A DNA stretch of 58,719 nt, from assembly GCF_002735305.1 (NCBI RefSeq), contig NZ_PDYG01000056.1, positions 1 to 58,719 on the forward strand, in the 5' to 3' direction. The notes beneath the pieces were generated by a model, which saw nothing but the letters and a program-made list of their open reading frames with translations, made no database searches and had not been told where the DNA came from. This document shows positions 22,622 through 56,416 of this stretch, one piece after another; position 1 is the first letter of the stretch, and each line of letters begins with the position of its first letter. This DNA comes from Agathobacter ruminis. GTDB lineage: Bacteria; Bacillota; Clostridia; Lachnospirales; Lachnospiraceae. The translations under genes were made by a program, and so were the position numbers.

Positions 22622-24484
22622 TTATTTTTTCACTTTCTTCCAATGCGCATACAATGTAATATTCTTGGTATTGTAGATGCGGCTTGCCTTTGTAATCTTG
22701 CTGCCGCCCTTTTTCTTGGTATACCAGCCGGTAAATTTGTATCCCGTACGCTTCGGTGTCGGAAGCTTGCCATATTTGCCACCGTTTCTATACTTTTTGG
22801 ATTTGGTGGATACTTTTCCCCCGTTTGCATGGAATTTGACTGTATAGACCTTGCCCTTCCATCGTGCATACAGCATCATCGGCTGCTTGGCTGTGATCTT
22901 CGTCTTCGAAGTCACCTTGGTTCCTTTCGACTTCTTGGTATACCAGCCCACAAATGTATAGCCGGTACGCTTCGGAGTTGGAAGCGGACCAAAGGTATAT
23001 CCGGTTGCACCAACCGTGCCCTGCTGTGTCATCTTGCCGCCACAGGCATCAAATCCGATAAAAATGGCAGAGCTGTCTGCCGCCTTTGACTTACTGATTG
23101 TGCTCTCTTCCACAAAGACAATACGGCTGGACTGAATTTCTTTATAAGATGACTCCCACATGCCCTGGAAATATCGATGCCCACCGAACTTTAATGCAAC
23201 AGCGCTACCGTTGTATGTCTTGGTCGGCGTTGCCTTTTTTGCGAAAGCGGTATTGGCAACGGAATAAGTCATTTTCATCTTGGAGAAGTCGACAGGTCCA
23301 TCGTAATTTATCACCGGTTTTTTCATTGCAAAATAATAATTGCCCTTTGAATTCTTTGCGACTTTCACTTGCAATGCCGGCAGACGCAACGCATACTGTT
23401 TCTTTTGCACCGTCTTTGCCAGCGGCACATGGGAAGTATTCAGCCATGACGGATAATTGTCATCCGTATGGCTCTCGTAACTTACAATGTCATCCTGACA
23501 GATTCTTTCGATTTCATCAATGGTCGTATTATAAAACAAGCGCAGAATCAAACCGGAAACATCATCATCCCAGGTTGCATCCACGACATACCATTTGCCG
23601 CCGATATAGACCTCATTCCATACATGATTGCCGCCCTCACTTTCATCAGAAGGCATACAAAACGCATAGCAATTGACAATATCAAAATAGCTGAGCATCG
23701 CCACCATCGCTTTGGTATATCCTGCGCATACCGTCTTGTGTGAAGCGATAATGCTATAAATGCTCTGGTTCATATCCACATAATCGTACGAAACCAGATC
23801 ACACAGATAATCATGGATTTCCATCTCCACAGCAAACTGCTGCTTCACATTGGATGAAGAATAATTCGGAACCGTCTTCTCGATGTCATGCACCCAGCTG
23901 TTCAGGAAATAGCGCAATTTTTCTTTTCCTGCTTTCAGCTTTGCTTTGGTTCCAAAATTATCATAAACCAGCAGCATTGCCACACCGCTGTCTACCGAAA
24001 AAATACTGGTATCCAGGAAAAAATATTGCGGATTTGCATATCCAAACAGGAAAACCACCTGTTCCGCCTGTGCTTCATTGATGGTGTAATAATCAACACG
24101 TTGTGTCATATAATAGACATCACTGCCGTCCTGTGTTTTGATTGGCGCCGTTTTTCCAAGCAGCAGATTCATGCAGACACGGTCAAGTTCCCTCCAGAGC
24201 GCTCTCTGGTTGCTGTTCAAAACCTTTTTGTAATAATAATCTGTTGTAAATTGTTTCCAATAGGCCTGCTCTGTTTTCTGGTCATATCGGGCTTCAAACG
24301 ATTCCTGTTTGTAAGCCTGCGTCACCTTTGGTGCTTTCAGATGCAGGTTGGTTGGAGTTGCCAGACCGGTGTGCAGTTCATGCGCAACCATCGGTTCCCT
24401 CTCTTGTGCCTGCGCCGGAACCACCGGAAATGCAAGCGTTGCGATCAACAGACCACACAATAGTTTTTTCATGATTCTTTTCAT
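22622..24484 (-). CDS. Secreted transglutaminase-like protein with InlB-type repeats
   Basis: A 620-residue protein with a signal peptide (cleavage around residue 26, after AQA) and a transglutaminase-like core. The catalytic triad is visible as Cys253 (TVCAGYTK), His287 (NHVWNEV) and Asp302 (VDATWDD). The C-terminus has two Listeria-Bacteroides (InlB B-type) repeats marked by TGYTFVGWYTKKSKGTKV and YARWK or YAHWK. It has no LPXTG or membrane anchor. It is paralogous to the upstream gene, 16 bp away, and was probably produced by tandem duplication. It likely crosslinks or cleaves proteins at the cell surface (inference). Confidence 0.88.
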   Translation of the reverse strand: MKRIMKKLLCGLLIATLAFPVVPAQAQEREPMVAHELHTGLATPTNLHLKAPKVTQAYKQESFEARYDQKTEQAYWKQFTTDYYYKKVLNSNQRALWRELDRVCMNLLLGKTAPIKTQDGSDVYYMTQRVDYYTINEAQAEQVVFLFGYANPQYFFLDTSIFSVDSGVAMLLVYDNFGTKAKLKAGKEKLRYFLNSWVHDIEKTVPNYSSSNVKQQFAVEMEIHDYLCDLVSYDYVDMNQSIYSIIASHKTVCAGYTKAMVAMLSYFDIVNCYAFCMPSDESEGGNHVWNEVYIGGKWYVVDATWDDDVSGLILRLFYNTTIDEIERICQDDIVSYESHTDDNYPSWLNTSHVPLAKTVQKKQYALRLPALQVKVAKNSKGNYYFAMKKPVINYDGPVDFSKMKMTYSVANTAFAKKATPTKTYNGSAVALKFGGHRYFQGMWESSYKEIQSSRIVFVEESTISKSKAADSSAIFIGFDACGGKMTQQGTVGATGYTFGPLPTPKRTGYTFVGWYTKKSKGTKVTSKTKITAKQPMMLYARWKGKVYTVKFHANGGKVSTKSKKYRNGGKYGKLPTPKRTGYKFTGWYTKKKGGSKITKASRIYNTKNITLYAHWKKVKK

Positions 24485-24500
24485 AATAAACTCCCGTCCT

Positions 24501-26834
24501 TTACTTTTTTATTTTTACGGATTTCTTTGCACTCCATGATCCGTAAATTTTCTTGCCGGTTGAGTCAGTTTTGTATGCGCGCACCTGGAAATAATATGTC
24601 TTTCCTTTTTTCAGACTCTTAAAGGTGCGGCTGAGCGTAGAGGCACTCAATGTCACCGTCTTTGCGCCCTTCATATTGCTGACCGTCGCGTAGCGAATCT
24701 GATATCCTTTTGCCCCGCTCACGGACTTAATGGTCACAACCGCCTTTCTGGTCGCTTTGTTGACAACTTTTGCGATTGTCCCCTTTGCCACGGTCACTTT
24801 CTGCCAATGCGCATACAGCGTCGTCGTTTTTGTAATCTTTACTACAGAGTTTGCTGTAACCTTCGTGCCGCCTGTTTTGGCCGTATACCATCCGAGGAAG
24901 GTGTATCCTGCGCGTGTAGCCTTCGGAAGCGTGCCGTATTTTGCAAGATAGGTAACCGTCTTGGAAGCACTTGACGATTTCCCACCATTGCCATTGAACT
25001 GCAATTTATAAGAATTGACCTTCCAATGTGCATAATAGGTTGCAGCTCCTGTGACAAGTGTGTCGACTGATACCTTGGTTCCTCCGGACTTTGCTGTATA
25101 CCATCCGAGGAAGGTATATCCCGTGCGCGTCGGAGTCGGGAGTTCAGAAAGTGCAGTATCATATTCGCATTGTCTGCTTCGACTTGCTGTTGCAAGTGTA
25201 CCCCCGTTCGGATCAAACGAGATGGTATATTTCACGGTTTTCCACCTTGCGATTAATTCCGTGCAAGGCAGCGATACCGGTGAAGAAGACAAACACTCTG
25301 CAAGGGTTTCATTCAATTCTTCCGGCGTATCATACACATCCTCGGAATTATACATGGAATTTCCCCATGCAACAACTTCATATCCCAGCTCTTGCAGTGT
25401 TGGAATTGTAACCTCCGTGGCAGTCAGCGGAACCTCAATGAATTGATCGCTTTTGCGATGCTCATATCCGCCATTCAAGAAAAATAAGATTGACCCTGTT
25501 CTGTAATAGCGGTCATCGAGACAGACAATTCGACTGTCCCTAGTATTATCCTCACCATCGCACCACATTGCAAAAAGCTTTTGATTTGCAGATAAATCAT
25601 ATGTAAGTTGCGCATTCGAATTCATGATACTCATATCACTTTGCGCAGGCTTTTGTGTCGCGGCACTGTCCTGCCATGCGTAATATGCATCTCCCCTGGT
25701 TTTGATTGTAACCTGAATATGTTCCAGTGTCCCATGCGCCTCAAATTTTGGTGCTGCCAGACGATATTGCACTGCAGTCGACCACTCACCTTCTGCCTCT
25801 GGCACAAGACTTGCCGGCAGGTATTCCGGATATGCATCCTCTGTATGCGTGCTATCGTTAAGCTTTTCATTGGTTGTATTCAAATATGTCCTGTTAATAT
25901 AAGTATCGCCGTTTGAATCGTCCCAGGTAGCATCCAGTACATACCAATTTTCGCCGATTTCCACCTCATTCCAGACATGCCCGCTACTAAAAACCACACA
26001 ATTGGTAATTCCGTAATAACTCAGCAGCGCAGTCATCGATTTCGCATATCCTGCGCATACTCCATAATGGTCAAACAAAACCGAAATCATACTCTGGTTA
26101 TACCACTCATCTGTATAACTATAATCATACGAAATTTCATCACAAACCAGATCATGAATCTCTACTTCTACATCGAATTGTTCCTCAGACGATGCATTTA
26201 ACGCATCATAATCCGGGAAAGTCATTGCGATATCTTCAGTCCACTTTTGGAGCATGGAGGCAAAATGTTCCGTCACCATACTTCTCGTCTGTCCATTGCC
26301 AAATGGTGTATATAAAATAATTGTCATCTGACTCGGAGTATTCGAAAACCAGTTGCTCAGGAAATAATATTGCGGATTGGAATAAGTAAACAACTCAATG
26401 ACCTGCTCTGTTTCCAATTCCGTCAGCTCATTGGCTGTCACCGGTTGCAACAAATAATGCTCATTTCTGCTGTCATATAAAATATAAGCGCTATTTTCGT
26501 TGAGCAGGATATCCATACATTCCACATCAAGCTGATCCCAGGCCTGCTTTTGTGCCTCACTCAGCTGCGTATAATAATAATTGGAAGAGTAGCGCTTCCA
26601 CTGCGTCGCCTGCGCATCCGAGCGGTAGCTGCGCTTCCGATATCCGGACGTCTGCTCGAGATGATCAAAGTCGACATTTACACGCACCGGACCCTGATAG
26701 CCACCTGTTTTTTGTTCTGTTGTATCTTCTGTCTGTTCCTGCTCGCCTGCAAAGAGCTGCATCTGTGGCAGCGCGGTCGCCACCATCGTCATGGCCAGTC
26801 CTAGTGCGAGCAAGCGCTTTTTCAATTTCTTCAT
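24501..26834 (-). CDS. Secreted transglutaminase-like protein with InlB-type repeats and FN3-like tail
   Basis: A 777-residue protein with a signal peptide (about residues 1-30). The transglutaminase-like core carries Cys260 (GVCAGYAK), His286 (GHVWNEV) and Asp301 (LDATWDD). At least two InlB-type repeats follow in residues 545-690 (RTGYTFLGWYTAKSGGTKV and a near copy), then a fibronectin-III-like C-terminal domain (about 690-777, GYQIRYATVSN, YYFQVRAY). It is first in the operon with the 620-residue paralogue and the lipase. A surface or extracellular location is inferred. Confidence 0.88.
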   Translation of the reverse strand: MKKLKKRLLALGLAMTMVATALPQMQLFAGEQEQTEDTTEQKTGGYQGPVRVNVDFDHLEQTSGYRKRSYRSDAQATQWKRYSSNYYYTQLSEAQKQAWDQLDVECMDILLNENSAYILYDSRNEHYLLQPVTANELTELETEQVIELFTYSNPQYYFLSNWFSNTPSQMTIILYTPFGNGQTRSMVTEHFASMLQKWTEDIAMTFPDYDALNASSEEQFDVEVEIHDLVCDEISYDYSYTDEWYNQSMISVLFDHYGVCAGYAKSMTALLSYYGITNCVVFSSGHVWNEVEIGENWYVLDATWDDSNGDTYINRTYLNTTNEKLNDSTHTEDAYPEYLPASLVPEAEGEWSTAVQYRLAAPKFEAHGTLEHIQVTIKTRGDAYYAWQDSAATQKPAQSDMSIMNSNAQLTYDLSANQKLFAMWCDGEDNTRDSRIVCLDDRYYRTGSILFFLNGGYEHRKSDQFIEVPLTATEVTIPTLQELGYEVVAWGNSMYNSEDVYDTPEELNETLAECLSSSPVSLPCTELIARWKTVKYTISFDPNGGTLATASRSRQCEYDTALSELPTPTRTGYTFLGWYTAKSGGTKVSVDTLVTGAATYYAHWKVNSYKLQFNGNGGKSSSASKTVTYLAKYGTLPKATRAGYTFLGWYTAKTGGTKVTANSVVKITKTTTLYAHWQKVTVAKGTIAKVVNKATRKAVVTIKSVSGAKGYQIRYATVSNMKGAKTVTLSASTLSRTFKSLKKGKTYYFQVRAYKTDSTGKKIYGSWSAKKSVKIKK

Positions 26835-26920
26835 CTATTTTCCATCCTATTCTGACGATTCATCAAAGTGTCTCATATCTTATTTTACAATGAGAGCCCT
26901 TCAGATGCAATCACTCATAT

Positions 26921-27563
26921 TTGTCACATACCATCCACACCACCATATACCTGTCAGCCTCTCAGCCTCCCCGCCGCCGCGCTCTGCCTGTCGGCGCACA
27001 CACACGGCTTTCGAAAGCAAGATTCTCAGTAAAGCCGCGCACCGCATCTTTGATTGAGGCTGTTCTTTCAACTATTTGCACTTCTCCCGCACAGTCTTTT
27101 CTACGCAAACACACAACCATTTGTAGAACTTTCCTGGGCCATATAGACCGGTTGAGGAACATCGTTGGAAGTGCGCTTAGTAAAACAGAAGCCGATTTTG
27201 CGAAGCACTCGATACGAGCCGCCATGGACGGCGGCGAGAGTCGAAGGCGTCCCGGACGGACGCTCTGAGACGGTGTCGAGCGCTCAAAACCGGCTTCGTG
27301 GTTTTACTTAGCAAGCGGACAGTGTTCCTCAACCGGTCTATATGGACAGGAAAGCGATACGAAACACAATAAGGTGTTTGCGACGAAAAGACAGTTTGTC
27401 GAAGTGCAAAATCGGTGAAAGGACAGCCTCTTGAAGCGCTGCTTACGGCTTTGGAGAATCTAAGCTTTCTCGCCTACCGTATGTGCGCCGACAGGCAGAG
27501 TGCGGCGGCGGGAAGGCTGAAGGGCTGAGAGGTAATAGGCATAAGGAGGATGGTATGTGACAA
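26921..27563. repeat. Giant palindromic element, copy 1 (core in orientation I)
   Basis: This 643-bp non-coding element is one long nested inverted repeat. The outermost arms are TTGTCACATACCATCC at 26921-26936 and its complement at 27548-27563. Next is a perfect 17-bp stem CTGCCTGTCGGCGCACA with its complement near 27485, then imperfect arms of about 120 bp (AGATTCTC…AAAGCC against GGCTTT…GAGAATCT). A perfect 22-bp inverted repeat beginning CCATATAGACCGG at 27139-27160 has its mate at 27324-27345 and encloses a 163-bp core (27161-27323). A second copy with the core reversed lies at about 55720-56290. Open frames inside are by-products of the symmetry. Confidence 0.9.
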
Positions 27564-27566
27564 AAA

Positions 27567-27598
27567 ACCCACCGCATCGCGAAGTGCGATCGGTGGGT
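27567..27598 (-). terminator. Terminator of pyruvate kinase
   Basis: ACCCACCGATCGCACTTCG and CGATGCGGTGGGT form the stem on the minus strand, followed by TTTTTTG, which is also the tip of the giant palindrome. Confidence 0.85.
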
Positions 27599-27604
27599 AA
27601 AAGA

Positions 27605-55634: not shown

Positions 55635-55719
55635 ATATCTTCCGTCTCTTTGCTTCCAATTCTCTAACGCCCTCTATTATACCAAACTTTCGCCCCCATT
55701 CACAGTCCTCACTCACTCC

Positions 55720-56290
55720 GCATCCTCTTCTCTCTCTCCGCCCGTATGCTGCCTCCCCCTGCCTTCTCACAGGGCATTTGGAGGCAAGATTCTCAGCAAA
55801 GCCACACGCTGCTTCTTTGAATGAAGCTGTTCTTTCAACTTTTTGCACTTCTCCGGCACAGTCTTTTCCACGCAAACATCCAATCATTTGTAGTCCTTTC
55901 CTGGGCCATATAGACCGGTTCGGAACACAGTCCGCTTGCTAAGTAAAACGACGAAGCCGGTTTTGAGCGCTCGACACCGTCTCAGAGCGTCCATCCGGGA
56001 CGCCATCGACTCTCACCGCCATCCGTGGCGGTTCGTATCGAGCGCGTCGCAAAATCGGCTTCTGTTTTACTAAGCGCACTTCCAACGATGTTCCTCTACC
56101 GGTCTATATGGCCCAGGAAAGAGATACAATCGTATCCAATATGTTTGCGTGGAAAAGACAGTTTGTCGAAGTGCAAAATCGGTGAAAGGACAGCCTCTTG
56201 AAGCAGCGCGTACGGCTTTGGAGAATCTAAGCCTCCTCGCCTATCGTGTGAAGGCAGGGGAGGCAGCGCATGGACGGAGGGAGACTAAAT
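55720..56290. repeat. Giant palindromic element, copy 2 (core in orientation II)
   Basis: This is a second copy of the element at 26921-27563. The middle arms match copy 1 in the same direction, including the inner repeat beginning CCATATAGACCGG at 55906 and its mate at 56090-56111. The enclosed 163-bp core (55927-56089) matches the reverse complement of the copy 1 core with about 11 differences. The outermost stems (GCTGCCTCCCC… against …GGGGAGGCAGCGC) are unrelated in sequence to those of copy 1 yet pair just as well. No gene is apparent in 55635-56416. Confidence 0.9.
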
Positions 56291-56416
56291 AGGATTGGGA
56301 GCAGAGACGAGTGATAGGAGAGAAACAGTGAAAGGGATGCGTAAAGAGCGAAAGTTTTGCTTTACTTTCTCGAACATCCGTTCTATAATACTTGTACACA
56401 GAAAGGAGGACATGTC

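Follow-up and report, generated by a model that had tools for sequence, protein, structure and literature searches.

A dispersed DNA palindrome with TwoAYGGAY RNA at its tip and a centre that inverts in place, probably by arm exchange

Two large palindromes on one contig of Agathobacter ruminis carry a core that runs in opposite directions, which raises the questions of whether this core can turn round in place, by what means, and what it encodes. The window analysed here is the whole of contig NZ_PDYG01000056.1 (contig 56; 58,719 nt), part of a 2.86-Mb genome assembled in 134 contigs (hereafter G000). The first palindrome (copy 1) is a 645-bp near-palindrome at 26920–27564, between a gene for a transglutaminase-type protein and the pyruvate kinase gene. 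Its arms pair over stretches of 17 nt at 100%, 56 nt at 89% and 22 nt at 86%, and as RNA the full 645 nt have a folding energy of −382 kcal/mol (z = −28.5 relative to 20 shuffles). The left outer arm (26920–27003), the sequence of which is unique to copy 1, and the right outer arm (27479–27564), both with approximate inner limits, enclose a left middle arm of a type common to sister copies (type X, 27004–27138) and a right middle arm of type Y (27346–27478). Next come the inner inverted repeats (27139–27161 and 27323–27345), which are present as predicted from the sequence alone but form a fully complementary pair of 23 bp rather than 22 bp, and between them the core, a plus-strand match to the RNA family RF01731 at 27164–27323 (51.9 bits). 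Copy 2 lies at 55688–56325 with its core reversed relative to copy 1 (55927–56086, minus strand, 51.1 bits); read by eye, it contains CCATTCACAG at 55696–55705 on the plus strand, which is like the end motif of subfamily B described below.

The 163-bp core of copy 1 (27161–27323) matches copy 2 only as its reverse complement, without gaps and with 10 mismatches, within one of the roughly 11 differences that the original prediction had counted. This alignment scores 286 reversed and 70 on the same strand, and none of 200 shuffles exceeds 20. Both elements have their arms in the same direction, again as had been noted: copy 1 matches copy 2 at 75% over query positions 102–584 on the plus strand, and at 82% over positions 157–562 on the minus strand. 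A comparison limited to the two window copies cannot tell turnover of the core from turnover of the middle arms, since each copy has outermost arms of its own.

Around copy 1, a terminator-like hairpin with a T tract, read by eye on the minus strand at 27564–27601, lies 3′ of pyruvate kinase and adjoins the palindrome; it is excluded under a stricter terminator rule. The T tract of a terminator abuts the palindrome in 4 of 19 copies, neither window copy among them, against 0.7% in the control. The view that no promoter lies near the element held up, since the single promoter-like match there compares with an expected 0.7. No empty site for copy 1 was found, synteny around pyruvate kinase being absent at the 11 loci inspected of 23 same-genus loci returned, and an exact 19-mer search among named genomes, a set that may leave out this genome's own records, returned two unrelated records, about the chance estimate. 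On the other side, two adjacent genes at 22622–26834 encode transglutaminase-type proteins with List-Bact repeats.

In a covariance-model search the core proved to be the TwoAYGGAY RNA (Rfam RF01731; Weinberg et al. 2010, PMC2864571), encoded on the plus strand in one window copy and on the minus strand in the other. G000 contains 25 matches, 24 of which reach the gathering score of 43 bits. In the window copies, the first loop is AUGGAC or ACGGAU and the second is CCGGAC or CCGGAU; GGA is kept in both, and the second loop reads CCGGAY, with the first A of AYGGAY replaced by C. Of 392 genomes sampled across the order, 33 contain the RNA, and 29 of these 33 belong to the same bacterial family. 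A single-contig genome of the same genus (G016) has 49 copies, most of which show both AYGGAY loops by eye, and a close relative of G016 (G014, a draft in 50 contigs) has 33, of which 30 are covered by the comparisons below. The Rfam model spans 168 positions, whereas here the 168-position motif forms the tip of a palindromic DNA element of about 240–780 bp that occurs in up to 49 copies per genome and has an invertible centre. TwoAYGGAY is thereby recast as the tip of a large, repeated and partly mobile palindrome. Titles, abstracts and passages of the open-licence literature yielded no account of TwoAYGGAY as part of a palindrome or of an invertible element, and no established role for the RNA.

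All but one of the G000 copies fall in two palindromic subfamilies, A (the window type, 13 copies) and B (11 copies); the remaining copy, L053, is an RF01731 match without a palindrome and was left out. Of these 24, three (L041, L043 and L055) are truncated at contig ends, and two (L046 and L051) show a rearrangement on one side. Several contigs stop inside an element (for example, C7, C9, C14, C20, C26, C70, C81, C89 and C133), so that 25 may understate the true copy number. At L032 and L034, the flanks directly outside the element appear by eye to be mutually complementary, as if the element sat in the loop of another hairpin.

Subfamily B bears marks of movement. Its copies end in TTACCATTCACAG, which has 52 matches with at most one mismatch, against one for a reversed control. 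Among the 12 of 15 copies that have both ends (three lacking one end were dropped), five carry direct repeats at the target that score at least 6, the best being AATAAAAGA and TTTCTAACG, of 9 bp; among cross pairs, 0.8% score as high (permutation p = 2e-4). These direct repeats indicate that the B elements moved by transposition, so that the suggestion of a mobile element finds backing in the target duplications of this one subfamily. Six further TTACCATTCACAG end pairs in G000 (L166–L171) enclose palindromes of 271–461 bp that have no RF01731 match and fold to between −140 and −253 kcal/mol; they are probably centre-deleted derivatives of B elements. MITEs and REP elements are short, non-coding, palindromic and repeated. 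The element resembles both in these traits, and subfamily B further resembles MITEs in having terminal inverted repeats and target-site duplications (5 of 12 copies); unlike them, the element carries a structured RNA family.

The idea that the outer arms are target-site copies was rejected for G016, in which, by eye, the conserved ends lie outside the variable arms. A candidate empty site at L259 of G014 is not clean: in G016 the two flanks are separated by 6 kb that hold an IS110-type gene and other genes. Separately, a group II intron reverse transcriptase (464 aa, 98.5–100% identical, with PF00078 and a maturase domain) lies near the core at L283, L284, L285 and L286, four of the five G016 loci with a shortened RF01731 match, and at two of these the other half of the element is found some 1.9 kb off; the element seems to act as a landing site.

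Orientation was compared among sister copies within genomes. In alignments of the 13 subfamily A copies, ten read X-arm, core, Y-arm and three read Y-arm, core, X-arm (L045, L048 and L054, the last being the 55.8-kb copy of the window), with L046 and L051 scored on one arm only. A leave-one-out score available for nine of the 13 gave a better match in reverse for the same three and not for the other six. Reading the orientation from C-rich 5′ arms was rejected, as the palindrome is C-rich on both 5′ sides. Against the 12 cores compared, the nearest to the three reversed copies are those of L047, L050 and L046, respectively, all non-reversed and separated by 3, 1 and 7 differences. Since the three reversed cores are thus nearest to three different non-reversed copies, the flips were probably independent events. 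By eye, the changeover in L054 lies within CTTTCCTGGGCC-ATATAGACCGGT, and in L045 and L048 within GTCTTTTC-NN-CGCAAACAC, about 25–40 bp further out than the inner repeat. The 22-bp repeats are therefore not supported as a general site of switching: the changeover falls there in the 55.8-kb copy alone, and the flips between relatives described below map to copy-specific outer arms. All nine complete B copies share one arrangement. Relative to the middle arms, the core likewise runs one way in 48 of 49 copies of G016 and 29 of 30 of G014, with one undecided in each; flips in these two genomes are visible only against the flanks, not against the middle arms.

We therefore compared orthologous loci of G014 and G016, of which 23 pairs were recognized by their flanks. 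Two (L251 and L255) were dropped, as only one flank matched and the core of neither is that of the ortholog (ranks 17 and 40 among 49), whereas L258, also with one matched flank, was kept because its core ranks first. Among the 21 usable pairs, 16 have the same orientation and five (L250, L253, L262, L264 and L266) are opposite at the same locus, with flank identity near the element of 91–100%. In blastn alignments of the five, 262–286 bp are turned round inside loci that are otherwise collinear over about 3 kb; with matched arms, the inverted segment can be no longer than this. Where the arms differ outside the palindromic block, they follow the flanks (60:0, 49:0, 52:0, 57:0 and 12:0), and differences inside the block, core included, are all reversed (55, 50, 50, 43 and 54, with none unreversed). 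At the other 16 loci the inside differences are unreversed (32–56 each), apart from one reversed site in L272. These data show that the segment inverts in place between two close relatives. The scoring of orientation across related genomes that the original prediction had called for thus gave the opposite of one fixed orientation per locus, and its central claim, an invertible centre, is borne out. The 21 comparable loci also make inversion of at most 262–286 bp between short matched arms measurable in two close genomes.

The copies are numerous and similar, so a reversed copy could in principle reflect replacement by another copy in the opposite orientation, by gene conversion or re-insertion. 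Each of the five flipped cores, however, ranks first of 49 for its ortholog by a wide margin (189–205, with no other copy above 146), which contradicts replacement at these five loci. The comparison covers the five G014/G016 loci, no orthologous locus having been found for the three reversed G000 copies, and we consider replacement extremely unlikely as an account of the reversed copies. Assembly errors at palindromes could likewise give orientation differences; several G000 contigs end inside the element and G014 is a draft. Yet G016 is one contig, the five loci are collinear on both sides, and the three reversed G000 copies keep their paired unique outer arms. Arms of 40–49 columns, the length in which the five breakpoints lie, are also shorter than usual reads. 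Misassembly is accordingly very improbable to our minds.

Among other genera, flanks gave six further ortholog candidates, five of them in the same orientation; a seventh (157 bp at 75%) was ignored. The arms concur at 113:0 for L335/L339, 73:0 for L308/L319 and 73:1 for L321/L322, and give an ambiguous 14:5 for L312/L320; the orientation of L312/L320 and L315/L317 rests on one flank only.

How, then, would the centre be turned? The arms of the element are inverted repeats of each other and enclose the core. Exchange between them, through template switching by DNA polymerase at the hairpin or through recombination, would now and then turn the enclosed segment round in place, and could also copy one arm onto the other. 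We consider it likely that the element is a dispersed palindrome, mobile in at least one subfamily, with TwoAYGGAY at its tip and a centre turned by such exchange, and from the breakpoints we infer arm-to-arm exchange rather than a site-specific invertase. All five breakpoints lie inside matched, copy-specific outer arms of 40–49 alignment columns, as expected of spacer inversion by template switching, and no word of more than four bases is common to the five arms.

The relatedness of the arms bears on the same process. In G016, a 5′ outer arm finds its best partner in the 3′ arm of its own copy in 21 of 21 usable cases (30 tried, nine without the landmark), and in subfamily A in 7 of 7 (11 tried, four without the landmark); mean scores within and between copies are 68.6 and 14.4 in G016, and 61.0 and 16.6 in A. 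This pairing within copies is the pattern that arm-to-arm copying would give. In the middle arms, the same copy provides the best partner in 0 of 10, and these arms are not homogenised, because the X/Y difference is conserved. Nor is arm homogenisation fast: over 835 arm columns in 20 G014/G016 pairs, six changes are concerted and 77 one-sided. Since one-sided changes so outnumber concerted ones, arm pairing may also be held by selection. Arms of 40–49 columns are short for RecA recombination.

Matching of arms and inversion of spacers are both described as outcomes of template switching at inverted repeats (PMC8604942, PMC8794818), and the element resembles these cases in having arms matched within each copy and a spacer turned round. 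The scale differs. Spacer inversions in the yeast examples given there comprise 2–5 substitutions, and the inverted rRNA loops are typically 4 nt and up to 7–8 nt, a few bases in all, whereas here up to 262–286 bp are turned, with a structured RNA inside and at several loci.

The main competing mechanism is a site-specific invertase that recognises the arm sequence and flips the core, as in a classical inverton. The event itself looks the part: a short intergenic stretch flanked by inverted repeats is cleanly turned round, with both orientations represented at one locus (5 of 21), and recombinase-linked invertons are known in Clostridia (PMC11892184). A further point in favour is that tyrosine recombinases, the class covered by our genome-wide search, have matches in all three genomes (7 in G000, 13 in G014 and 20 in G016). 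A dedicated enzyme would, however, be expected to need a common site, and none is found: the five flip arms share only words of four bases or fewer, and two different tracts are used in G000. The earlier observation that no invertase lies near the element also stands, with no recombinase among 46 window proteins in a Pfam scan. Unlike the invertons of PMC11892184, the element lacks a recombination site common to its copies and has no recombinase linked to it in the window, and its centre is an RNA motif. We regard an invertase as quite unlikely, and arm-to-arm exchange is the simplest account of the flips.

Whether the inversion serves a function is a separate matter. If the switch were selected, turning the core would change the strand from which RNA is made, and hence the RNA or antisense RNA at a neighbouring gene. 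Five of 21 loci do differ in orientation, and in G016 mismatches between outer arms favour G–U-tolerant pairs on the Rfam strand by 44 to 10 (35 of 49 copies), or 21 to 4 when counted by copy. But the G016 ratio falls to 73 to 49 with a wider window (p = 0.037), the bias is unrepeated in G014 (23 to 15), in G000 (18 to 30; 56 to 57) and in seven other sets, and no single gene context surrounds the G016 copies. Selection on the arms at the RNA level, seen in G016 only and weaker with the wider window, was accordingly dropped as a main argument, and we view a selected switch as unlikely. By a simple ORF rule, the upstream and downstream neighbours of 30 G016 copies lie on strands (+,+) in 11, (+,−) in 8, (−,−) in 6 and (−,+) in 4, with one undetermined, and those of 21 G000 copies are (−,−) in 12 and three each of the other arrangements; such neighbours are not what a 5′ leader would have. 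Of the proposed RNA switch, the RNA part stands, the core being a known RNA family, and the switching role is hypothetical.

As to the role of the RNA, its motif had led to the proposal that TwoAYGGAY binds CsrA (PMC4333381). The csrA gene (PF02599, matched by hand) is present in 33 of 33 RF01731 genomes and in 225 of 392 overall, a genome-wide association of TwoAYGGAY with CsrA that these results add. The hypergeometric values are 4e-9 by genome and 9e-5 by genus, uncorrected for relatedness; within the family the value is 5e-4, likewise uncorrected and based on 81 positives counted by hand and only 20 listed negatives. The csrA gene often sits with flagellar genes. For this reason, and because relatedness is uncorrected, the co-occurrence is support for a CsrA-related role and not proof. 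We infer that the RNA is transcribed and acts in a CsrA-related role. It resembles the CsrB/CsrC/Rsm sponge RNAs in presenting GGA in hairpin loops and in the presence of csrA in every genome with the motif; it differs in existing as dozens of dispersed palindromic copies, which are candidate CsrA binders. A broader possibility, which we hold to be doubtful, is that these dozens of dispersed RNA hairpins would each sit on a DNA flip-switch of their own, with arm exchange at every palindrome continually turning the RNA-coding centre and no invertase taking part, such that the combination of strands giving CsrA-binding or antisense RNA would differ among cells.

Other arrangements of the motif were also seen. 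The sixth ortholog candidate, from another genus, pairs L330 (G265) with L337 (G408), and the inversion there takes in about 593 bp, including an RF01731 core; with flanks only 77% alike and a larger unit, it was not counted as a flip. Divergent RF01731 pairs, about 130–1105 bp apart, occur at L086–L093 and in G016 at 613736/614033 and 2296099/2296552, and at L090 and L093 the arms, inverted and about 300 bp long, are 97–99% identical.
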